Below are positions 906 through 10,502 of a stretch of DNA of 10,502 bases, in pieces; the stretch's first letter is position 1, and the number at the start of each line of letters is the position of its first letter. The DNA is from an uncultured Streptomyces sp. Lineage in GTDB: Bacteria; Actinomycetota; Actinomycetes; Streptomycetales; Streptomycetaceae. The position numbers were made by a program, and so were the translations under genes. The notes under the pieces were generated by a model, which saw only the letters and a list, made by a program, of their open reading frames with translations, was not told where the DNA came from and searched no databases. The stretch covers positions 1 to 10,502 of the forward strand of contig CAMLJW010000160.1 of assembly GCA_946480485.1 (NCBI GenBank), written 5' to 3'.

Positions 906-1040
906 GGCTCCTATTCTGCCGGGGCGTTCCGCCCTGCGAACCGGTGTCCCGGAGCCTGGGACGGGGGTCACGTGATGGTCCTGCTCGGCGGCCGCGCCAT
1001 GGACCGGCCGCAGCATGTCGGGCTCGGGTTCCATGCCGAT

Positions 1041-1242
1041 CGGGCGCCATCGCCCGGTACGAGCCGAACCCGGCCGCCGTCGCGCACAGCGTGACCAGCA
1101 GCAACGACACCAGCGAGAAGCACCGGCCCCGAGGATCACGCGGGTCTCTCACCTCGGCCAACCGCCGCAGCAGCAACGTCCGCTCCGACGCGAGCGACAT
1201 CGACACCACCACGGGCACACACATGGCAGACTGACGATTCAT
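1041..1242 (-). pseudogene. ISAs1-type transposase N-terminal remnant
   Basis: Reading leftward from 1242 the frame gives residues like LLLRRLAEVRDPRDPRGRC and then SLVSLLLVTLCATAAGFGSYRAMAP. This resembles the N-terminal DDE_Tnp_1-associated domain of ISAs1 (H-repeat) family transposases, which typically read RLaeVpDPRdpRGvryPLasLLalalCAvlaGarSyaAI. Intact members run to about 350-400 residues. Here similarity stops after about 65 codons, the sequence becomes Arg/Pro-rich shadow, and it then runs into the phosphatase. No catalytic DDE part is visible. The start is ambiguous: ATG at 1242, or an internal ATG at 1200. It is best read as the stub of an insertion sequence that has lost most of its body. 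Confidence 0.55.
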
Positions 1243-1300
1243 CGAAGCTCCGTAGGCACAAGGCGACTTGGTAGGTCACCCCGCTCAACGGAGCTTCGAT
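1241..1300. repeat. 13-bp perfect inverted repeat, 34-bp spacer
   Basis: ATCGAAGCTCCGT at 1241-1253 is matched by its exact reverse complement ACGGAGCTTCGAT at 1288-1300. The spacer contains a smaller complementary pair, CAAG and CTTG. The left arm touches the start codon of the transposase remnant. The pair could be paired IS terminal repeats left after rearrangement, or a hairpin near the 5' end of the transposase message. No target-site duplication was recognised. Confidence 0.6.
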
Positions 1301-1500
1301 CTTCCACGTCGCGGACCGCTCACCTGCAGAAACGTTTCAATCCCGGACCTTGCGTCAGCCCTGGTCGGTGCCCTGGTCGAGTTCGGTCGGCGCGCAGCGG
1401 GGCGCGAAACAAGCACATTTCGCCCGAGTCCGCTGAAAATCGTCGTGCACGATGCGATCCGGAGAGCTGGACAGGCGGCCAGATTGGCTAGACCTTTGCG

Positions 1501-1534
1501 GTTGCTTGAAAGTTGTAGTTGCTTGAAAGTTGTA
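1501..1534. repeat. 17-bp tandem direct repeat, two copies
   Basis: GTTGCTTGAAAGTTGTA occurs at 1501-1517 and again, identically and without a gap, at 1518-1534. A partial echo (GTTGC) follows at 1536-1540. It lies in the gene-poor leader. It may be a replication-slippage duplication or a pair of binding sites on one face of the DNA; nothing else in the window matches it. Confidence 0.8.
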
Positions 1535-1822
1535 GGTTGCGCCTCTGTTGTGGAGTCCAATACGCTGCCGTCCGCTGCGGAATTTTCGGCAGGGCTTTCG
1601 ATGGGGTTCAGCGTCGGAGCCCTTTGGACTTCAAGGCTGCATAGATGCACCCTCCAAGTATCCGGACTTCTACGACGAGCCAAGCTACGTCACCTTCTAA
1701 GAGCTTGCAGGGCAACACCTGAAGAAGTCGGGCTGGTGAACAAATAGCTACCATCGCGGGAGCTGATTTGAATCCGGACCGGGTCGTGGATTCTCCCAAG
1801 AATCGGGCATGGGGGTGTTGGT

Positions 1823-1852
1823 GGTTGACATGTCCATTGCGGCATGTCAACC
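1823..1852. promoter_or_regulatory. 10+10 bp palindrome containing TTGACA, candidate operator
   Basis: GGTTGACATG at 1823-1832 and its exact reverse complement CATGTCAACC at 1843-1852 are separated by 10 bases. This is the size and symmetry of a dimeric repressor site. The left arm contains TTGACA (1825-1830), a perfect -35 hexamer, but no good -10 sits 17-18 bases downstream (CAACCT or AACCTA). No T-run follows, so it is unlikely to be an ordinary terminator. It lies about 130 bases before the decarboxylase start, so it is a plausible operator or a structured leader. The binding protein is unknown. Confidence 0.45.
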
Positions 1853-1945
1853 TATGCGAACCGCTCGGGAGCAAGGCGCTCTTTGGCGGTCCGATCGCAT
1901 CGTGAAGTCAATCCAATTACGGCGTGCGACAGGGCGTCCTGGGAA

Positions 1946-1951
1946 TATGAT
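1946..1951 (+). promoter_or_regulatory. -10 box candidate for the decarboxylase operon
   Basis: TATGAT lies 28 bases before the ATG at 1980 and differs from TATAAT at one base. No good -35 hexamer is seen 16-18 bases upstream; TTACGG at 1917-1922 is too far away. It may be an activator-dependent promoter with a short leader, or chance in a less GC-rich region. Confidence 0.3.
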
Positions 1952-1979
1952 CCGTGAAAAAGGCGAAGTGAGGTCGTAA

Positions 1980-3482
1980 ATGACGCATCAGATGCAGGGT
2001 TTATCGTTCACCGAAATGGCTGAGCAGTACGGAACGCCGATCTACGTCTATGACGCCGATGTCATCACCGACACCTATCGCCGGGTGAGGGCCGCGCTCG
2101 ATGAGAACATACAGATCTTCTACTCACTGAAGCCGAACCCGAACATCAGTGTCGTCGGACTGCTGGGCAGTCTCGGCGCGGGGGCCGAGGTCTGCTCTCT
2201 GGGGGAGCTGAGGTCCGCGCTCGCGGGAGGGATTCCGGCTGGCAATATTTTGATGACCGGCCCCGGAAAGAGCATCGAGGAAATCACCGAACTCGTCTCA
2301 CTCGATGTGCGGGCGATCATCTGTGAGTCTTTCCCCGAACTCCGACTCATCGACTCGATCGCCAAGCGGCTGGGCAAGCGTCCGCAGGTGCTGCTTCGGG
2401 TCAACCCGGCTCATGGAGTGACCGGTGGCCGGCTGACGATGGCGGGCCGGCCACGCCAGTTCGGCATCGACGAAGCCACCGTCCTCGAAGCCACCACCAC
2501 TGTGGACGAGCACCCCAACATCGACATCATCGGTGTTCAGATCTACACCGGAACGAGGATCCTGGACGCCGACGTAATCGTCCAGAACACCGAGCGCGCA
2601 CTCGACCTAGCCGACCAGGTCGCCGACAAGCTCGGAATCACCATCCAGATGGTCGACCTGGGCGGAGGCATCGGCCTTGCTTACTTCGAAGGCGAGTCCG
2701 ACCCCGACGAGAAAACTTTCGTCACCGGCATCAACAAAGCCACCAGGGATTTCCGGGCCAAGCACCCCAGCGCCGTCATCGCGATGGAACCGGGCCGCTA
2801 CCTCGTCGGCCAGGCGGGTGTCTGCGTCTTGAAGGTGCGTTACGTGAAGGAGTCCCGCGGTGAGCGCTACGCCATCACCGACGGTGGATCGAACCTGAAC
2901 ATGTCCGCCATCGGTCTCGGCACCTACGTCAAGCGCAATTTCCCCACCGTGCTCCTGTCCGCGGACCGGCCAATCGATGGACCGTGGTCGATCACCGGGC
3001 CACTGCTCACCCCCACCGATGTCCTCACCAAGCAGGCCGAGATGCCCGCGCTGTTTCCCGGCGACCTGATCGGCATTCTGCGCATGGGTGCTTACGGCCC
3101 AACGGCGTCAATCGCCTACATGAACGGGCAGGGATACCCGGCAGAAATCATGGTCCTGGACGGGGTCGCCCATCTCATTCGCGAGCGCGACACCCCGGAA
3201 GACCTGCTGAGCAAGCAGATTCTCCTGGACTTCGACCGAGAGGAGCAGCTCGACATCCGGGACACCATCGCCGAGGTTCTCAATCGCGATGCCGGAACTC
3301 TCACCAAGGAGACCCGGCTCAGTGACGACCTCCATCTCGACTCGCTGTCGATGGTCGAACTCATGGCCAGGCTGGAGGACCAGTTCAAGTTCTCCGTGGA
3401 TCCAGAGGGTTTGTCGCTCTGTGACTTCGCCACTGTCGGTTCGCTGAACGCGTATGTAGAGAGGTGCATACGTGGGGAATGA
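1980..3482 (+). CDS. PLP-dependent aminoacyl-carrier decarboxylase fused to a C-terminal carrier domain
   Basis: The 500-residue protein has two parts. Residues about 10-415 are a fold-type III (alanine racemase-like barrel) decarboxylase of the diaminopimelate/ornithine group. It has the PLP lysine in YSLKPNPN (K51), the phosphate-binding DLGGGIG (GGG 228-230), EPGR at 270-273 and GAYGPT at 370-375. Residues about 420-500 are an acyl/peptidyl carrier domain with LHLDSLSMVEL; Ser455 is the expected phosphopantetheine site. Relatives such as BtrK and VinO decarboxylate an amino acid held on a separate carrier, so the fusion suggests decarboxylation of an aminoacyl thioester on its own carrier, in the cytosol. 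Oddities: the usual active-site Cys motif (GPlC..D) reads GPLLTPTD, with Leu343 in the Cys position; HxGSQ is replaced by GVQIYTGTR; and codon 8 is TTA. GAGG at 1970-1973 supports the ATG at 1980. The substrate (Asp, Glu or a basic amino acid) is not determined. The closest named models I recall are the exosortase-associated decarboxylases and BtrK. Confidence 0.82.
   Translation: MTHQMQGLSFTEMAEQYGTPIYVYDADVITDTYRRVRAALDENIQIFYSLKPNPNISVVGLLGSLGAGAEVCSLGELRSALAGGIPAGNILMTGPGKSIEEITELVSLDVRAIICESFPELRLIDSIAKRLGKRPQVLLRVNPAHGVTGGRLTMAGRPRQFGIDEATVLEATTTVDEHPNIDIIGVQIYTGTRILDADVIVQNTERALDLADQVADKLGITIQMVDLGGGIGLAYFEGESDPDEKTFVTGINKATRDFRAKHPSAVIAMEPGRYLVGQAGVCVLKVRYVKESRGERYAITDGGSNLNMSAIGLGTYVKRNFPTVLLSADRPIDGPWSITGPLLTPTDVLTKQAEMPALFPGDLIGILRMGAYGPTASIAYMNGQGYPAEIMVLDGVAHLIRERDTPEDLLSKQILLDFDREEQLDIRDTIAEVLNRDAGTLTKETRLSDDLHLDSLSMVELMARLEDQFKFSVDPEGLSLCDFATVGSLNAYVERCIRGE
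2001..2003 (+). other. TTA leucine codon at position 8 (possible bldA control)
   Basis: The eighth codon of the decarboxylase-carrier gene is TTA. In Streptomyces this codon is read only by the developmentally controlled bldA tRNA and is concentrated in secondary-metabolite and late genes. Placed this early, and with the next gene translationally coupled, it could make the whole operon depend on bldA. I saw no other in-frame TTA in the genes of this window. Confidence 0.8.
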
Positions 3483-4962
3483 ACTGGTCCATGACCTGCT
3501 GGATGCCGCGCCGCCCTCGGCGGACGCGATGGCGGAACGAGGACGTGTACTCCGCTACCTGGATGTCGTCAGAGCCAGCATCGAGATCGCGTCGTGGATG
3601 CACCACAGCGGGGTCGGAGTGGGCGACAGGGTGATCATCTCCCTGTCCCGGTCTCACGCGCTTGATGTCCCGTCATTCGTGTACGCGTGTTCACGAATTG
3701 GTGCGGTGTTTTGCATAGTGCACGAGCAGGTTGTCGGGGCAGCCCTCGTCCACGTTCTCGAGGACGCGGCCCCGGCTCTGGTCATCTCCGACAATGCGGA
3801 GGTGCTCGGCGAGGCAGCCATACGGGGCATACCCGCCTACGGCCCGGACATCGACTTCGGCGCTGCACCGCAGGTCGTGGAACAGCTGCGAGTCTCCCCC
3901 GAGGCCCCTGCCTGCATGATCTACACATCCGGCAGCACCTCGCGACCCAAGGCGGTCGTCTCGGCACACGCACAGATCACGTTCGTGGCACGGGCGATTC
4001 AGTCTCAGCTTCGCTATCGGCCCGACGACGTGATCTACACCACGCAGCCGTTCTCCTTCGATGTCGGCCTCTACCAGATCTTCTTGGCCGCCCTGTGCGG
4101 CGCGCGGGTATGGCTGTCCTCGCCCAGCGGCGCGGGTGTGTTCATCGTTTCGGAGATGGTCGAATCGAAGGCCACGGTGCTCCCCGCGGTGCCCACCGTG
4201 GCGCAAGCGCTGATGTGGGCGGTCAGCAGGTGGAAGGCCGAGTCGCCCCTGCCGAGGCTGCGCCTGCTCACCAATACTGGCGCGGCCATGCCAAGTGGGG
4301 TACTCGCGTCACTGCGCGAGCGCCTGCCGGATCTGCGCATCCAACTCATGTACGGCCTCACCGAGTGCAAGCGTGTCTCGATCATGCCCGTCGACGGTGA
4401 CCTCGAACGCCCGGGGTCGTCGGGGTTGGCGCTACCGGAGACGGAGATCCGGATCGTCGATGGAGAGGACCGCGTCGTGCCTGCCGGTGTAGTCGGTGAA
4501 GTCGTGGTCGCTGGTCCCCACGTCATGAACGGCTACTGGAACCAGCCGGCTATGACCGCCGAGAAATTCAGGGTGTCCGGTCTGCGCACGGGGGATTTCG
4601 GTTACCTCGATGACGACGGGTATCTGTTCATCGAAGGCCGTCGCGACGATATCTACAAGCAGAGCGGGTTTCGCGTCAGCGCATCGGAGGTCGAAGCGGC
4701 CGCACTCGAAATACCGGGGGTTCAACTGGCGGCTGTACTCGCTCCGAAGAATGATCGCGACAGCATCCTTGTCGTGACGGGCGCGGTGGATTCGGAGTCG
4801 GTGATGAGAGGGCTGTCGGAGCTACTCGAACTGTTCAAGTTGCCGAAGCAATGTATGTTGGTGGAAAAGATATCACTCAACCAGAATGGAAAGATCGACA
4901 AGAACGCCATCGCATCCATGCTGTTCGCCCAGGGGAACGCCAAAGTCGGTTCGGGCGGATGA
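3472..4962 (+). CDS. stand-alone adenylation enzyme (AMP-forming amino acid-carrier ligase)
   Basis: The 496-residue protein is a complete ANL-superfamily adenylation enzyme without its own carrier. Motifs in order are the P-loop YTSGSTSRPK (151-160), FSFDVGLYQIF with Asp197 where amino acid-activating domains bind the substrate amine, MYGLTECKRVS (YGLTE 294-298), RTGD (372-375), the hinge GRRDDIYKQSGFRV (389-402), and the C-terminal catalytic lysine in NQNGKIDKN (K474). It should make an aminoacyl-AMP and transfer it to a phosphopantetheine thiol, most simply that of the carrier domain encoded just upstream. The GTG start overlaps the previous gene by 11 bases and has GAGAGG eight bases upstream, indicating translational coupling. 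Length and motif style resemble DltA/VinN-type ligases and exosortase-associated ligases. Keeping Asp197 favours an alpha-amino acid, but specificity cannot be read with confidence. Confidence 0.85.
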   Translation: MGNELVHDLLDAAPPSADAMAERGRVLRYLDVVRASIEIASWMHHSGVGVGDRVIISLSRSHALDVPSFVYACSRIGAVFCIVHEQVVGAALVHVLEDAAPALVISDNAEVLGEAAIRGIPAYGPDIDFGAAPQVVEQLRVSPEAPACMIYTSGSTSRPKAVVSAHAQITFVARAIQSQLRYRPDDVIYTTQPFSFDVGLYQIFLAALCGARVWLSSPSGAGVFIVSEMVESKATVLPAVPTVAQALMWAVSRWKAESPLPRLRLLTNTGAAMPSGVLASLRERLPDLRIQLMYGLTECKRVSIMPVDGDLERPGSSGLALPETEIRIVDGEDRVVPAGVVGEVVVAGPHVMNGYWNQPAMTAEKFRVSGLRTGDFGYLDDDGYLFIEGRRDDIYKQSGFRVSASEVEAAALEIPGVQLAAVLAPKNDRDSILVVTGAVDSESVMRGLSELLELFKLPKQCMLVEKISLNQNGKIDKNAIASMLFAQGNAKVGSGG

Positions 4963-5025
4963 ACGGATAAAGGGGTAAAAGGGGTCCCGGTAGTTCGCGG
5001 GGCCTGTCGATAACGCCCCTTGCAT

Positions 5026-5061
5026 TGGAGGTCGGCCGGTTGATGAGCCGGCCGACCTCCA
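5026..5061 (+). terminator. strong intrinsic terminator after the ligase gene
   Basis: A perfect 14-bp stem (TGGAGGTCGGCCGG at 5026-5039 with its complement at 5048-5061) has an 8-base loop and is followed by TTATTT. It starts 63 bases after the ligase stop. It should end most transcripts of the two-gene operon and separate it from the secreted-protein gene. A weaker pairing, AAGGGG (about 4974) with CCCCTT (about 5016), lies just before it. Confidence 0.88.
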
Positions 5062-5169
5062 TTATTTGAACGGCCGACCAACAGGAGTTCCCCCTGCATC
5101 ATTTACCTCCAATATCCTCGGCTGGCCTCCACATTGTGAAGAGATCCCGATATCAACTTCACAAAGGGG

Positions 5170-5739
5170 GTGCGTTTGGAACAGGCGCTTGATGGCAATA
5201 TGGGCGGCGATCGACCATCTTCAAGCCCCACGCCTTCTTCAATTGACCGTTCTCTCTCCAGTGGATTGGTTTGTTCGGTGTCAATTTCCATCCGTGCTCG
5301 ACACGCTCTCCCCCTCGCTTTGGCGGGCTCTCTCGCAGTGACGGTCCTCGTTTCCACCGAACCGGCGTCGGCTGAGAGCGGCAGACGGGTCTGCAGTGCC
5401 ACCGAGAAGCAAAATCAGACCCTCGGCGGTCGCGAGTACTGGGTTTCAGTGGGGCTCGATTACAAGAAGGACGGGAGGTGTCCCATCCTGTGGCCGAAAG
5501 ACCAGGAATACTACAACAGTATAGGGATGCCGGAAGGGCCGCCCGGACTCACCAAGGAGAACCCGAACCCCAAGGTCCGCTGCGAGGACTGGCCCTGGAA
5601 TATGGGCGGAACTCCGTGGGGCAATGATGATGTGTGCACTCAAATGGAAGACGACGTGCCTTACATTTTCTACGTCGACAAGCTGACGGGCCAAACCTCA
5701 GAGAAGCGCGGCTCGCATCTTTTCAACATTTCCTGGTGA
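5170..5739 (+). CDS. small secreted protein with four cysteines, unknown family
   Basis: I do not recognise the family. The frame from GTG 5170 gives 189 residues. A Sec-type signal is clear at RARHALPLALAGSLAVTVLVSTEPASA, with likely cleavage after ASA around residue 68. The mature part is about 120 residues, hydrophilic and rich in Trp, Tyr, Pro and Gly. It has four cysteines (75, 104, 138, 156 in the long numbering) that could form two disulfides. No enzyme motif or anchor is seen, so it is probably exported and free. The start is uncertain: GTG 5170 touches its own GGGGG; TTG 5176 has better spacing from AAAGGGGG; GTG 5278 would give a normal 33-residue signal peptide but lacks a clear ribosome site. 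Its lower-GC composition matches the upstream operon rather than the flanks. A strong terminator lies between them, so a shared function is only inferred from proximity. Confidence 0.65.
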   Translation: MRLEQALDGNMGGDRPSSSPTPSSIDRSLSSGLVCSVSISIRARHALPLALAGSLAVTVLVSTEPASAESGRRVCSATEKQNQTLGGREYWVSVGLDYKKDGRCPILWPKDQEYYNSIGMPEGPPGLTKENPNPKVRCEDWPWNMGGTPWGNDDVCTQMEDDVPYIFYVDKLTGQTSEKRGSHLFNISW

Positions 5740-5770
5740 ATCGTTGACCGGCCTTTTGTACCTCGATTTC

Positions 5771-5794
5771 GTAAGAGGGACCGTAAGAGGGTCC
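5771..5794. repeat. 12-bp near-perfect tandem repeat beside the terminator
   Basis: GTAAGAGGGACC (5771-5782) is followed directly by GTAAGAGGGTCC (5783-5794), with one mismatch. The second copy supplies the left arm of the terminator stem at 5786-5817, so the first may be a duplicated arm allowing an alternative, imperfect hairpin. Confidence 0.7.
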
Positions 5795-5817
5795 GTCAGG
5801 TTGCCGGCGGACCCTCT
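5786..5817. terminator. hairpin terminator after the secreted-protein gene
   Basis: AGAGGGTCCG at 5786-5795 pairs perfectly with CGGACCCTCT at 5808-5817 across a 12-base loop. It begins 46 bases after the stop of the secreted-protein gene. There is no immediate T-run, but a T-rich stretch (TGTTGTTTT) follows about 13 bases later. It could also serve the converging TetR-type gene that ends at 6017. Apart from this and the tandem repeat, I see nothing in the 277 bases between the two genes. Confidence 0.65.
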
Positions 5818-6016
5818 GTGCTGTTCGGTGCTGTTGTTTTCGGCGGGGGATATCAGGCTCGATCCACCGATTGATGTTTCGCCTGTGGACGAAGTGGCCC
5901 TGCCCGGTCGGCAGCCCGCCGACGGCTCCGCCCACCACCGCTGGGGGATGGGGGCGCAACTGTGCATCTCGGAGAGCAGTGGAACAGGAGAACAGCGGCT
6001 CAGCGGTGTACGGCTG

Positions 6017-6625
6017 TCACGGAACGGGAGACCAGGGGGCGAGCAGATCACGCAGCAACTCGGTGAAGGCTGTGTCCAGTGTGTCCTCCCCATGTTGGTC
6101 GCCGACGGCTTCGGGGTTGAGGGCGGCGGGGCGGGCGATCCAGAGAATCTTCCACGTCCTGGAGTTCAGTGCGGGGTCGCCCCAGATCCCGCCGTGTGGG
6201 ACGAGCGGGTGGAGCAGATCGCTGAGCTGTTCCGTCACGACCTGCACCAGCGGGCCCTCGGTCGCTGCGTGCGCGGCTGCGAGTGCCGTGGGGGACGACC
6301 GGGCGATGGCTGCCGTCGTCGGATGGCGGCGGATGATGCGGACCACGTGTGTCAGGTGGTCGGTGATCCCCGGGACGGTGCCGTCGCTGGGGCAGGCACG
6401 GTGCGCCGAGTCAAAGACGTGTGCGAGTTCGGCCTTGAGTGCGAGCAGGTGCAGCGCGGAGGCGGACTTCCAGTTGGCATAGAGGAAGTTGCGTGACGTG
6501 CCACAGGTGCGGGCGATGGCGGCGAGAGGCACCTCCAGACCGTCGGTGCGCATCAGCGTGCGTACTGTGGTGATCACCTGTCCTGTGCTGTAAGGGCTGC
6601 GTGCGTACGCGAATCGCGGGCTCAT
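6017..6625 (-). CDS. TetR/AcrR-type transcriptional regulator
   Basis: The protein has 202 residues, the usual TetR size. Its N-terminal helix-turn-helix is visible at residues about 30-60: LEVPLAAIARTCGTSRNFLYANWKSASAL, matching the family pattern (hydrophobic-x-x-IA...GvS...lY.hf.sK..L), though Ala-Asn-Trp replaces the common tyrosine/histidine/phenylalanine turn. The rest is a helical, Ala/Leu-rich ligand and dimer domain without recognisable ligand motifs. The ATG at 6625 has only a weak AGG upstream. Homologues normally repress a neighbouring gene and respond to a small molecule. The nearest divergent gene is the ABC exporter, 456 bases away with a pseudogene between, so that target is possible but unproven. 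High GC links it to the right flank rather than to the decarboxylase operon. Confidence 0.75.
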   Translation of the reverse strand: MSPRFAYARSPYSTGQVITTVRTLMRTDGLEVPLAAIARTCGTSRNFLYANWKSASALHLLALKAELAHVFDSAHRACPSDGTVPGITDHLTHVVRIIRRHPTTAAIARSSPTALAAAHAATEGPLVQVVTEQLSDLLHPLVPHGGIWGDPALNSRTWKILWIARPAALNPEAVGDQHGEDTLDTAFTELLRDLLAPWSPVP

Positions 6626-6749
6626 GACGCCTATCGTGCAAAAAAGCGTGAGCGCGTAGGGGCAGAATGCCGTCTGGGCACTCGAATGAGCGGTGTTTGC
6701 ACGCTGCGGGGAGAAGTGCTCAGGCTTTCGCCGGAGGTACTGCTCTGCT

Positions 6750-6770
6750 GGGCCGAGTGCGACTCGGCCC
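6750..6770 (-). terminator. 9-bp hairpin downstream of the DUF397-like remnant
   Basis: GGGCCGAGT at 6750-6758 pairs with ACTCGGCCC at 6762-6770 around a GCG loop. On the minus strand it lies 11 bases past the remnant's stop (6782), as expected for the gene's old terminator. There is no T-run, which is common in Streptomyces. It might also act on the plus strand. Confidence 0.5.
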
Positions 6771-6781
6771 GAACAGCCCCC

Positions 6782-6886
6782 TCAAGCGGGGAGCTCGCCG
6801 TGCTTGACGGCGGTGACGAACAAGGACCAGCCGGTCGCCTAAAAAGACACAGCGGGGCCGTGCGGGTTCGAGCAGCCGCGCCGCAT
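6782..6886 (-). pseudogene. decayed DUF397-like protein fragment
   Basis: Read on the minus strand, the frame ends in ATGWSLFVTAVKHGELPA and stop (6782-6784). It is preceded by CSNPHGPAVSF and an in-frame TAG at 6839-6841. DUF397 proteins are small actinobacterial proteins, often beside XRE-type regulators, and typically end DSKnPhGPaltFtptgWsaFvtaVk.GE, so both blocks line up with the tag between them. The conserved N-terminal half (WRKSSyS...CVEVA) is not recognisable upstream, and no XRE regulator is adjacent. It is probably a dead gene; a single base error at 6839-6841 would restore only the C-terminal part. Confidence 0.5.
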
Positions 6887-7031
6887 GTTCGTGGTGACGC
6901 TGCGGGTGGGTCTGACTCGCTCGTCTGACAGTGACGACAACCGGAACACGGTCCAGACCACCCGCCTCCCTCACCTGCGCCTGCGCCTGCCCGTTTGCCA
7001 TGGAGGGATGAATTTCCCGTCCGTCGGCGTT

Positions 7032-7078
7032 GGTGCCTTCCGATGGACCCGGACTGATCAGGACGAACGGAAGGCACC
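7032..7078 (+). promoter_or_regulatory. inverted repeat enclosing the exporter ribosome binding site
   Basis: GGTGCCTTCCG (7032-7042) is the exact reverse complement of CGGAAGGCACC (7068-7078). The right arm contains the Shine-Dalgarno GGAAGG used by the GTG at 7082. A folded transcript would hide that site. The same symmetry could instead be a protein-binding site. The 25-base loop contains a tiny ATG-start frame (7043, stop at 7055). Confidence 0.5.
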
Positions 7079-7081
7079 GGC

Positions 7082-10000
7082 GTGGCAGCGCAAGAGCTGG
7101 GGGAGGGGCGGGGGAAGCCCGGCTGGGTACGGCGGCTCGCCGGGTACGCGTGGCGGTATCCGAAGGACGTCGTGCTCGCGCTGGGCGCCTCGCTGGGCGG
7201 TATGGCCCTCATGGCCCTCGTACCACTGGTCACCAAGGTCATCATCGACGACGTCATCGGGGATCACAGCCGGGACATGGCCCCATGGGCCGGCGCCCTC
7301 GTCGCCGCCGCCGTCCTCGTCTACGTCCTCACCTACATCCGGCGCTACTACGGAGGCCGCCTGGCCCTCGACGTCCAGCACGACCTGCGGACCGAGATGT
7401 ACGGGACGATCACCCGGCTCGACGGGCGGCGGCAGGACGAGCTGTCGACCGGGCAGGTGGTGGGCCGGGCGACCAGCGACCTCCAGCTGATCCAGAGCCT
7501 GCTGTTCATGGTCCCGATGACCATCGGGAACGTACTTCTCTTCCTGATCTCCCTCGCAATCATGGCGTCGCTGTCCCTGCCGCTCACCCTCGTCGCGCTG
7601 GCCGTGGCCCCCGCGCTGTGGTGGGTGGCCAAGCGGAGCAGTACCCGGCTGCACCCGGCGACCTGGTACGCGCAGGCGCAGGCCGCCGCCGTCGCCGGAG
7701 TCGTCGACGGCGCCGTCAGCGGCGTACGCGTGGTGAAGGGGTTCGGGCAGGAGGAGCAGGAGACCGGGAAGCTGAGGGAAGTCGGGCGCCGGCTCTTCGC
7801 GGGGCGGCTGCGGACCGTTCGGCTCAACGCCAGGTACACCCCGGCACTGCAGGCCGTGCCCGCGCTCGGGCAGGTCGCGATGCTCGCTCTGGGTGGCTGG
7901 CTCGCCGTACGCGGGCACATCACCCTGGGTACGTTCGTGGCCTTCTCCACCTACCTCGCCCAGCTGGTCGGACCCGTCCGCATGCTCGCCATGGTGCTCA
8001 CCGTCGGGCAGCAGGCCCGGGCCGGCGCCGAGCGCGTCCTGGAGCTGATCGACACCGAGCCGTCGATCAAGGACGGCACAAAGCCGCTGCCGGCCGACGC
8101 CCCCGCGACCGTCGAGTTCGACGACGTGACCTTCGGCTACGGCGGGGGATCGAAGAAGCAGCCCGTACTCGACGGGCTGTCCTTCGAGATCCGGCCCGGC
8201 GAGACCCTCGCTGTCGTCGGCGCCTCCGGCTCCGGCAAGTCGACGGTGTCCCTCCTTTTGCCGCGCTTCTACGACGTGACGCGCGGCGCCGTTCTCGTCG
8301 GCGGGCACGACGTGCGGGAGCTGACGCTCGACTCGCTGCGCGCCGCGATCGGGCTCGTCCCCGAGGACTCCTTCCTCTTCTCGGACACCGTGCGCGCCAA
8401 CATCGCGTACGGCCGCCCCGAGGCCACCCAGGAGGAGATCGAAACCGCCGCGCGGGCCGCCCAGGCGGACCGGTTCATCACCGGGCTGCCCGAGGGCTAC
8501 GACACCAAGGTCGGCGAGCACGGTCTGACCCTCTCCGGCGGGCAGCGCCAGCGCGTCGCACTCGCCCGCGCGATCCTCACCGACCCGCGCCTGCTCGTCC
8601 TCGACGACGCGACCTCGGCCGTGGACGCCCGGGTGGAACACGAGATCCACGAGGCCCTCAAGCACGTCATGGCCGGGCGTACCACCCTCCTCATCGCCCA
8701 CCGCCGCTCCACCCTCAACCTCGCCGACCGCATCGCCGTGCTCGACGCCGGACGGCTCGCCGACATCGGTACGCATGAGGAGCTGCAGGAGCGCTCGTCC
8801 CTGTACCGGCGGCTGCTCACCGACCCGGACGAGCTGGGCGGCGTCTCGCCCGGGCACACCCGGCCGGCCTGCCCGGGCGAGGACACCTCCGTACGGGACG
8901 AACTGGACGCCGAGTTCGACGTCCAGCGGGGGATCACGCCCCGGCTGTGGACCGGGGACCGTGAGCCCCGGGACGCGGCCATGGACGGGATGCCCGCGAC
9001 ACCAGAACTCCGCGCCCAGCTCGACGCGTTGCCCCCGGCGAGCGACACCCCCGGCGTCGACGAGGCGCGGGCGGTCACCCCCGAGGAGTCGTACGGACTG
9101 CGCAGGCTGCTGCGCGGCTTCGGGCTCCCGCTGCTCGTCAGCCTCGGCCTCGTCGCCGTCGACGCGGGCCTGGGGCTGCTGCTGCCCGTGCTGATCCGTG
9201 ACGGCATCGACGACGGTGTCACGCAACTCGCGCAGGGCGCGGTGTGGACGGCGGCGGCGCTCGGCCTGCTGACCGTGCTCGTCCAGTGGGCAGCGCAGAC
9301 CGGTGAGATCCGCATGACCGGACGTACGGGCGAGCGGGTCCTGTACGCGCTCCGGCTGAAGATCTTCGCGCAGCTCCAGCGGCTTGGGCTCGACTACTAC
9401 GAGCGGGAGCTGACGGGCCGGATCATGACCCGGATGACGACGGACGTCGACGCCCTGTCGACCTTCCTGCAGACGGGGCTCGTCACCGCCTTCGTCTCGG
9501 TTGTCACCTTCTTCGGCATCATGGTCGCGCTGCTCGTCATCGACGTGCAGTTGGCGCTCGTGGTCTTCGCGACGCTGCCGCCGCTGATCGTCGGTACGTT
9601 CTTCTTCCGCCGGTCCAGCGTGAAGGCGTACGAACTGGCCCGTGAGCGGGTGTCCGTGGTGAACGCCGACCTTCAGGAGTCGGTGTCCGGGCTGCTGATC
9701 CTGCAGGCGTTCCGGCGTGAGCGGGCCGGCGGGCGGCGGTTCGCGGAGGGCAGCGACAGCTACCGCAGGGCGCGGATCCGCGGACAGTGGCTGATCTCGG
9801 TGTACTTCCCGTTCGTGCAGCTGCTGTCGTCGGTCGCGGCGGCAGCGGTGCTCATCGTGGGCGCGGGGCGGATCCAGGCGGGGACGTTCACCGCCGGCGC
9901 GCTGGTCGCGTACCTCCTCTACATCGACCTGTTCTTCGCGCCCGTGCAGCAAATCTCCCAGGTCTTCGACGGCTACCAGCAGGCGACCGTCTCGCTCGGC

Positions 10001-10502
10001 CGGGTCCAGGAACTGCTGCAGGAGCCGGCCTCCACGAAGGCCGCCGACGAGCCACGCGTAGTCCTGTCCCTACGCGGCGACATCACCTTCGCGGACGTCG
10101 ACTTCGCCTACAACGACGATGAAGAGGCGCTCAGCGGGGTCTTTCTGACCATCCCCGCCGGGCAGACCGTCGCCTTCGTCGGCGAGACCGGCGCGGGCAA
10201 GTCGACGCTGGTCAAGCTGGTCGCCCGGTTCTACGACCCGACGGGCGGGCGGGTGACGGTCGACGGCACGGACCTCCGCTTGCTGGACCTCACCTCGTAC
10301 CGGCACCGCCTGGGTGTCGTCCCTCAGGAGGCGTACCTCTTCCAGGGCACGATCCGGGACGCCATCGCGTACGGCCGCCCGGACGCGACCGACGCCGAGG
10401 TGGAGGCCGCCGCCCGCGCGATCGGCGCCCACGACATGATCGCCACGCTCGACGGCGGCTACCTCCACGAGGTCGCCGAACGCGGCCGCAACCTCTCCGC
10501 CG
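7082..10502 (+). CDS. single-chain tandem ABC exporter (TMD-NBD-TMD-NBD), cut by window end
   Basis: One uninterrupted frame of 1140 codons runs off the window. Half 1: membrane domain about 35-320 and ATPase domain from about 343, with Walker A GASGSGKST (380-388), LSGGQ (484-488), Walker B LLVLDD (504-509) and His540 switch. A hydrophilic linker covers about 580-665. Half 2: membrane domain about 671-980 and ATPase domain from about 1000, with Walker A GETGAGKST (1034-1042) and Q-loop Gln1082. The window stops inside its signature motif (NLSA). This is the type IV exporter (lipid/drug) fold in the plasma membrane, equal to two fused half-transporters. In half 1 the Q-loop Gln is Glu428 and the Walker B catalytic Glu is Asp509, as at the degenerate site of asymmetric exporters. 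GTG 7082 is chosen for GGAAGG seven bases upstream and because an in-frame TGA lies at 7055. The substrate is unknown; antibiotic, lipid or siderophore export are all possible. Confidence 0.92.
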   Translation, partial: MAAQELGEGRGKPGWVRRLAGYAWRYPKDVVLALGASLGGMALMALVPLVTKVIIDDVIGDHSRDMAPWAGALVAAAVLVYVLTYIRRYYGGRLALDVQHDLRTEMYGTITRLDGRRQDELSTGQVVGRATSDLQLIQSLLFMVPMTIGNVLLFLISLAIMASLSLPLTLVALAVAPALWWVAKRSSTRLHPATWYAQAQAAAVAGVVDGAVSGVRVVKGFGQEEQETGKLREVGRRLFAGRLRTVRLNARYTPALQAVPALGQVAMLALGGWLAVRGHITLGTFVAFSTYLAQLVGPVRMLAMVLTVGQQARAGAERVLELIDTEPSIKDGTKPLPADAPATVEFDDVTFGYGGGSKKQPVLDGLSFEIRPGETLAVVGASGSGKSTVSLLLPRFYDVTRGAVLVGGHDVRELTLDSLRAAIGLVPEDSFLFSDTVRANIAYGRPEATQEEIETAARAAQADRFITGLPEGYDTKVGEHGLTLSGGQRQRVALARAILTDPRLLVLDDATSAVDARVEHEIHEALKHVMAGRTTLLIAHRRSTLNLADRIAVLDAGRLADIGTHEELQERSSLYRRLLTDPDELGGVSPGHTRPACPGEDTSVRDELDAEFDVQRGITPRLWTGDREPRDAAMDGMPATPELRAQLDALPPASDTPGVDEARAVTPEESYGLRRLLRGFGLPLLVSLGLVAVDAGLGLLLPVLIRDGIDDGVTQLAQGAVWTAAALGLLTVLVQWAAQTGEIRMTGRTGERVLYALRLKIFAQLQRLGLDYYERELTGRIMTRMTTDVDALSTFLQTGLVTAFVSVVTFFGIMVALLVIDVQLALVVFATLPPLIVGTFFFRRSSVKAYELARERVSVVNADLQESVSGLLILQAFRRERAGGRRFAEGSDSYRRARIRGQWLISVYFPFVQLLSSVAAAAVLIVGAGRIQAGTFTAGALVAYLLYIDLFFAPVQQISQVFDGYQQATVSLGRVQELLQEPASTKAADEPRVVLSLRGDITFADVDFAYNDDEEALSGVFLTIPAGQTVAFVGETGAGKSTLVKLVARFYDPTGGRVTVDGTDLRLLDLTSYRHRLGVVPQEAYLFQGTIRDAIAYGRPDATDAEVEAAARAIGAHDMIATLDGGYLHEVAERGRNLSA

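Follow-up and report, generated by a model that had tools for sequence, protein, structure and literature searches.

Adenylating ligases, decarboxylases dependent on pyridoxal 5'-phosphate (PLP) and carrier proteins act as trios in several described systems, all of which belong to larger pathways in the literature seen here (macrolactam polyketide synthase (PKS), nonribosomal peptide synthetase (NRPS) lipopeptide, AFC-BC11 and butirosin). VinN, VinO and VinL are described in PMC11284099 as separate proteins, as an initial annotation of the present DNA had also stated, and in PMC12186527 AfcQ, AfcK and AfcP alone assemble carrier-bound (beta-Ala)n in vitro. We studied a stretch of 10,502 nucleotides from an uncultured Streptomyces sp. 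(contig CAMLJW010000160.1; hereafter the window) in which such a trio is reduced to two genes, a pair that recurs at unrelated actinobacterial sites. Open reading frames (ORFs), Pfam matches and the same gene overlap in 4/4 other genomes confirmed the annotated arrangement of decarboxylase and carrier in one 500-residue chain, with the ligase gene overlapping it by 11 bases. We propose, giving the idea about an even chance of being right, that the pair is a self-contained two-protein device in which aspartate is loaded via its beta carboxyl and decarboxylated in place, to yield a beta-alanyl thioester or the oxidised form of it. The decarboxylase is altered at a position where, in other enzymes, loss of the residue can lead to an aldehyde instead of an amine.

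Organization of the gene pair

The first gene (1980..3482, on the positive strand like all features of the pair) encodes a PLP fold-III decarboxylase-like enzyme and a carrier protein in one chain, with matches to PF02784, PF00278 and PF00550 that all exceeded the Pfam cut-offs. The decarboxylase-like domain spans residues 1-415 (1980..3224; PF02784/PF00278, and a phmmer match to BtrK over residues 9-415) and carries the PLP-binding Lys51 (codon 2130..2132) in the motif FYSLK. A linker of about 10 residues (416-424; 3225..3251), delimited in an AlphaFold2 model, leads to the carrier domain at residues 425-498 (3252..3473), where PF00550 matched residues 426-492 and the model helices begin at 427. 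Ser455 (codon 3342..3344), the predicted phosphopantetheine attachment site, lies in an LDSL carrier motif, in agreement with its earlier assignment as the carrier serine. The AlphaFold2 model of the fused protein, built from 56 sequences, predicted the decarboxylase fold, a short linker and then the helical carrier (mean predicted local distance difference test score 87.8; predicted template modelling score 0.79). Foldseek ranked BtrK (2j66) first, with a template modelling score of 0.92 by target length, and BtrK was also the best solved relative by sequence (7e-74), while a viral fold search gave nothing useful. Judged by Pfam, Foldseek and Lys51, the protein has both the fold and the PLP lysine of fold-III PLP decarboxylases. 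A chance fusion is excluded because six full-length fused homologues (P0002-P0007) showed 77-83% identity over the alignment.

Several sources name homologues of this protein diaminopimelate decarboxylase, and its TIGR01048 score was 290.7 bits. It is nevertheless highly improbable that it is an ordinary enzyme of that kind whose carrier tail has no bearing on its function: the score falls short of the 297.9 bits at which TIGR01048 is cut off, LLTPTD stands where the CES motif (CESxD) is expected, the decarboxylase scored 252.8 bits with BtrK against 184.2 bits with the best LysA, and a ligase gene is adjacent in all five loci read. An exosortase A-associated pair was also considered and rejected, with scores below the cut-offs for both TIGR03099 (309 vs 478 bits) and TIGR03098 (253 vs 592).

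The second gene (3472..4962, GTG start) encodes a VinN-like adenylating ligase of 496 residues, which matched PF00501 and whose best match in the PDB was 3wvn (2.8e-97), which we take to be VinN. The 11-base overlap with the first gene (3472..3482) has the same length in the four other loci with this pair. Asp197 (codon 4060..4062), Thr269 (4276..4278) and Lys300-Arg301 (4369..4374) aligned to 3wvn chain positions 246, 315, 346 and 347, which with a constant offset of 16 fit VinN Asp230, Ser299, Lys330 and Arg331; threonine for serine is a conservative change. VinN Lys330, too, has a role in the enzyme. The Asp and the Lys-Arg were kept in 118 of 120 ligase homologues in the list, which counts the window ligase itself, the remaining two being one with His-Arg and one divergent. 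It is proposed in PMC7756342 that VinN Asp230 reads the amino group and Ser299/Arg331 the alpha-carboxyl group of the substrate. The ligase thus presents the AMP-binding fold, the nearest solved relative and the recognition residues of a VinN-type enzyme.

Likely substrate and proposed reaction

Aspartate, activated at its side-chain carboxyl, is the most likely substrate of the ligase, because the VinN recognition residues are kept, AfcQ, which has the same arginine, is described as activating L-Asp and not beta-alanine (PMC12186527), and the glutamate mutase E family PF06368 was unmatched in 4/4 other genomes with the pair, although none of 14 control genomes rose above the cut-off either, so that the search had no positive control. 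With this reservation, 3-methylaspartate was rejected as a substrate on the same result. The initial annotation had left the candidate amino acids open, and the likely choice can now be narrowed to aspartate.

In the proposed reaction, the ligase would adenylate the beta carboxyl of L-aspartate, which would be loaded onto the phosphopantetheine of the carrier that shares a chain with the PLP enzyme; the decarboxylase-like domain, possibly working as a dimer, would then take the alpha-carboxyl off as CO2 from the still tethered substrate. The product, either the beta-alanyl thioester or the oxidised equivalent, would remain on the same chain until its release. As in AfcQ/AfcK/AfcP, a further activated aspartate may then be joined to the amine set free, giving short beta-alanine oligomers without a synthase. 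Direct support for this scheme lies in the two genes with their domains and conserved overlap, the intact PLP and carrier residues, the retained VinN recognition residues and the lack of a synthase-size gene call near four other copies of the pair. Since the AfcQ, AfcK and AfcP activities build oligo-beta-alanine on the carrier, no missing synthase is required, and the earlier deduction that a missing synthase forces the product to be used elsewhere or in an undescribed reaction does not follow (in vitro result of PMC12186527).

Homology favours the beta-alanyl outcome and the lost cysteine (see below) favours an aldehyde. A beta-alanyl thioester also agrees with relatives that keep the cysteine (Cys-type): a neighbouring protein in locus L132 and the fused tail of the decarboxylase in L137 match beta-alanyl-CoA:ammonia lyase 4mtu (6.9e-15 and 2.7e-10). 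Because of these matches, beta-alanyl thioesters are plausibly the normal product of Cys-type trios with a VinN-type ligase.

A leucine in place of the catalytic cysteine

Leu343 of the fused protein (codon 3006..3008) aligned at the catalytic-cysteine place of BtrK, LysA and the VinO-type enzyme of locus L135, the motif being GPLLTPTD in the window protein, GPLCTPED in BtrK, GPVCESSD in LysA and GPLCTPGD, with the cysteine kept, in the VinO-type enzyme. The latter, annotated beside a methylaspartate mutase and a type I PKS, shares the cysteine with eight other annotated relatives. A protein search gave 1439 matches, of which the best 120 were listed (P0001 being the window's own protein and P0008, P0009 and P0022 fragments); among these 120, cysteine was found in 98 (90 unfused, 8 fused) and leucine in 22 (18 fused, 4 unfused). 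An unfused Leu-type homologue is P0019 from Lentzea tibetensis.

Several points weigh against the proposed device. In the alignment of 56 sequences, Leu343 was present in 19/19 Leu-type sequences and cysteine in 37/37 others, so that none of the 19 has the cysteine of the GPxCxxxD motif of BtrK/VinO-type decarboxylases, and a loop is likewise fixed differently in the Leu branch at Met381 and Asn382. The C387A variant of D-ornithine/D-lysine decarboxylase, a related fold-III enzyme, is reported in PMC13294871 to keep about 1% of its activity. No neighbour of the pair could be recognised as a release enzyme, small transferases and thioesterases not having been sought systematically. The choice of carboxyl and the iteration would rest on homology, and the PF06368 search behind the choice of aspartate lacked a positive control above the cut-off among its 14 control genomes.

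The fixed differences between the Leu branch (19 sequences) and the rest (37) were Leu343/Cys, Ile378/Pro, Met381/Phe and Asn382/Leu. In addition, the Leu branch had Asn307 (17/19; His in 2) and Gln384 (16) or Arg (3), where the 37 have His. His307 and His384 were considered as further lost catalytic residues and given no weight: the VinO-type relatives lack His307 and 2/4 of them lack His384. As these differences are not unique to the window branch, the argument rests on Leu343 and the loop; Leu343, Met381 and Asn382 were still unique to the window protein once VinO-type relatives were added (12 relatives). Note that the LysA loop also carries an Asn, and the loop of the Leu-type enzymes may resemble that of LysA. 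Gly228, Gly229, Glu270, Arg273, Asp301 and Tyr372 were identical in all 56 sequences and Lys51 was invariant across the compared sequences. Because the PLP site is intact throughout, the Leu branch looks like a re-tooled active site rather than a decayed one.

Fixed differences at substrate-side positions could also mean that the enzyme does not decarboxylate at all and performs racemisation, elimination or exchange at the alpha carbon of the tethered substrate. Fold-III enzymes include racemases; the nearest characterised enzymes decarboxylate, however, and Glu270, Arg273, Asp301 and Tyr372 are kept, which makes such a reaction quite improbable.

The cysteine change bears directly on the fate of the carbanion formed after CO2 loss. 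Cys360 of ornithine decarboxylase likely stabilises the decarboxylated adduct (PMC11912471), and altered protonation leading to a carbonyl compound and pyridoxamine 5'-phosphate (PMP) is reviewed in PMC7497351. In the Leu-type enzyme, the carbanion might be protonated at PLP C4' or react with O2, to give a 3-oxopropionyl (malonic semialdehyde) thioester plus PMP or ammonia. This tethered aldehyde synthesis is consistent with leucine for cysteine in 19/19, Met381-Asn382 for Phe-Leu and the intact PLP site, and the title of PDB entry 9cpz, in the Foldseek listing, names the D-ornithine/D-lysine decarboxylase C387S mutant together with PMP and the aldehyde 4-guanidinobutanal. Mutants of Cys360 in ornithine decarboxylase reportedly have a similar carbonyl and PMP outcome. 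However, entries 9cya (C387S) and 9nq5 (C387A) are titled with putrescine, the amine, and C387A was assayed as a slow decarboxylase in PMC13294871; Cys387 is, moreover, only presumed to be equivalent to position 343. Tyr380, present in 18/19 Leu-type sequences (His in 1) and matched by Tyr or His in 4/37 others, is a possible substitute acid, and none of the linked genes was recognisable as one for consuming the aldehyde or recycling PMP. Taken together, we consider the aldehyde unlikely. The broader view that the pair is an autonomous, mobile two-gene actinobacterial cassette without need of a synthase, in which a carrier-tethered fold-III enzyme, re-tooled by loss of its catalytic cysteine, turns aspartyl-carrier into a product other than beta-alanyl-carrier, most simply the malonic semialdehyde thioester, is offered tentatively and seems to us somewhat unlikely.

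Relatives and distribution of the pair

The fused architecture is not singular. Among the 120 listed of the 1439 homologues, 26 were carrier-fused (the window's own included) and 94 unfused, and Cys-type fusions fell in six separate places of a FastTree phylogeny, some at weakly supported nodes. Fusion of decarboxylase and carrier is by itself not new and recurs, and it was rejected as the main novelty on this ground. In the same tree, computed from 82 chosen sequences rather than all 120 and with a few near-duplicates between protein matches and genomes, the Leu sequences formed one clade (support 0.987) of 24 tips, one of them a fragment unlabelled by the motif pattern.

A search across genomes for the fused architecture and its neighbours, suggested as a check in the initial annotation, found the Leu-type pair in four other genomes: Nonomuraea gerenzanensis, one matching [Actinomadura] parvosata, and the congeners G794 and G795. 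The pair is rare in the genome sets searched. In the order of Actinomadura rubrisoli, 4/345 genomes matched at 1e-136, two with the Leu-type fused pair and two with separate decarboxylase and carrier genes. The family of Kibdelosporangium had the pair in 2/390 genomes (query P0010, 1e-150; query P0019, 1e-140) and its order gave 1/397 matched genomes, with separate genes; in one Streptomyces order, 1/391 genomes matched P0019 at 1e-135, with a Cys-type separate gene. Within the genus of G795, 10/25 genomes matched P0010 at 1e-100: two had the Leu-type pair, two Cys-type fusions and six a separate Cys-type decarboxylase. The plasmid search gave one record above 60% identity, from Nonomuraea gerenzanensis, and the 42 plasmid records that matched at 1e-40 included no Burkholderia, looked for on account of AfcP/BolN. 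Among the listed loci of a genome-contig scan (80 loci, L002-L022 gene-called), the decarboxylases read have the cysteine and any adjoining carrier is a separate gene.

Other arrangements were seen among the relatives. A VinN-type ligase stands with a Cys-type decarboxylase and a carrier encoded by its own gene in ectoine-synthase clusters (L131, L132, L136 and L137), which lie on plasmids of Streptomyces and on one of Rhizobium gallicum. The lyase-like neighbour in L132 is a hotdog protein and suggests an aspartate to acryloyl-carrier route, and the R. gallicum gene (L137:10163-11887) is a decarboxylase-lyase fusion, its match to the lyase lying in a C-terminal extension. On further Streptomyces plasmids (L133 and L134), a VinN-type ligase, decarboxylase and carrier stand beside small NRPS-like genes.

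Genomic setting

The pair occupies a segment of lower G+C (1035-7081) between a phosphatase gene and an ATP-binding cassette (ABC) exporter gene (7082-10502, ending at the window edge), with a G+C of 0.615-0.631 in the cassette vs 0.713-0.714 in the flanking exporter and phosphatase genes. The exporter is 94% identical to that of S. montanus, which identifies the host as a Streptomyces. Orthologues of the exporter (87-90%) were found in 2/8 genomes searched of a Streptomyces order; since other genes stand upstream of it in both, the cassette segment is not shared with those two. In G1068 (L149) the phosphatase is about 11 kb from the exporter with a different 11 kb between, and the second genome had no phosphatase within the 12.5 kb read. 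Two further window ORFs, 5338-5739 (small, possibly secreted) and 6017-6577 (regulator-like), were assigned by eye and had no Pfam match.

The pair was found at three kinds of site, the window included, with no recognised neighbour common to them; most neighbours were judged from gene calls and first residues, and hidden Markov models for condensation, acyltransferase and thioesterase domains were not run. In G794 (L087/L091-L092) and G795 (L088/L093-L094), the pair lies directly 3' of an egtD-like histidine methyltransferase gene (PF10017), with other ergothioneine genes seen by eye. It looks inserted there, because other genes come after the egtD-like gene in 8/8 further congeners read, and a functional link to the ergothioneine genes was rejected for this reason. 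A PucR-type regulator follows the pair in N. gerenzanensis and, by eye, in parvosata. Both Nonomuraea-type loci have an acyl-CoA dehydrogenase upstream of the cassette, with one or two called genes between (L001:12885-14093 in N. gerenzanensis; by eye in parvosata, L089), which recalls BolQ of bolagladin; it was not recognised at the other Leu-type sites.

The pair might supply a starter unit to a PKS or NRPS whose genes lie at another place in the genome, as VinN/VinO/VinL are described to do (PMC11284099) and as is proposed for BolO/BolN/BolC (PMC7756342), and in L135 a Cys-type ligase-decarboxylase pair is annotated beside the methylaspartate mutase and type I PKS. On the other hand, the ORF list of the window and Pfam searches of seven ORFs revealed neither a PKS nor an NRPS, as already noted in the initial annotation. 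The longest called genes near the four other copies were of 751, 619, 946 and 941 residues, in regions of 31-40 kb each with 9 to 27 kb per side where genes cut at the edges could not be judged. A typical modular synthase would need longer genes than these, and no recognised neighbour is common to the kinds of site; this holds for the regions read, not for whole genomes. A 166-residue fragment resembling an AMP-binding protein was found at the region edge in G795, about 16 kb off. We regard a starter-supplying role as improbable. Of the load-and-decarboxylate cassette that was originally annotated, the stand-alone character held, with no synthase-size called neighbour in four genomes, but its amine product is not assured, as Leu343 replaces the catalytic cysteine.

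Comparison with described systems

The open-licence PMC articles seen on VinN-type systems describe the three activities as individual proteins, and neither a fused version nor a cysteine-less member was found in them. The Cys-type fusions of G797 and G802 (L124-L127) have the same fused architecture as the window protein but keep the cysteine, and their upstream partner is not a VinN-type ligase; by eye it is a homologue of a G642 protein that matches PreATP-grasp/ATP-grasp. BtrJ is presumably also an ATP-grasp enzyme. The fusion in these two genomes (G797, L109/L124-L125; G802, L110/L126-L127) is independent and stands beside ATP-grasp-like and beta-ketoacyl synthase (KAS) III-like proteins, partners likewise identified by eye.

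BtrK, acting with BtrI and BtrJ in butirosin, is the nearest solved decarboxylase and works on a carrier-bound amino acid (title of PDB 7ru7), but it has GPLCTPED, a separate carrier and glutamate as substrate. BolO/BolN/BolC of bolagladin follow the same logic, with a proposed conversion of aspartate to a beta-alanyl thioester, although the proteins are separate and N-acylation and an NRPS follow (as presented in PMC7756342). VinN/VinO/VinL of vicenistatin and the FlvN-type systems share the ligase fold, the recognition residues and decarboxylation after thioester formation; they differ, from what PMC11284099 describes, in being separate proteins linked to a PKS and using 3-methylaspartate or Asp, and the VinO-type enzyme of L135 has the cysteine. 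AfcQ/AfcP/AfcK of AFC-BC11 likewise combine a VinN-type ligase, a PLP decarboxylase and one carrier, and are described in PMC12186527 as loading and decarboxylating L-Asp iteratively without a condensation domain; unlike the window pair, they are three separate proteins within a full lipopeptide cluster. In the pair studied here, nature may have turned an ordinary decarboxylase into a synthase of tethered aldehydes or into a minimal one of beta-alanine oligomers. It probably works like VinN/VinO/VinL or AfcQ/AfcP/AfcK, but with a decarboxylase that lacks one defining feature, the catalytic cysteine.

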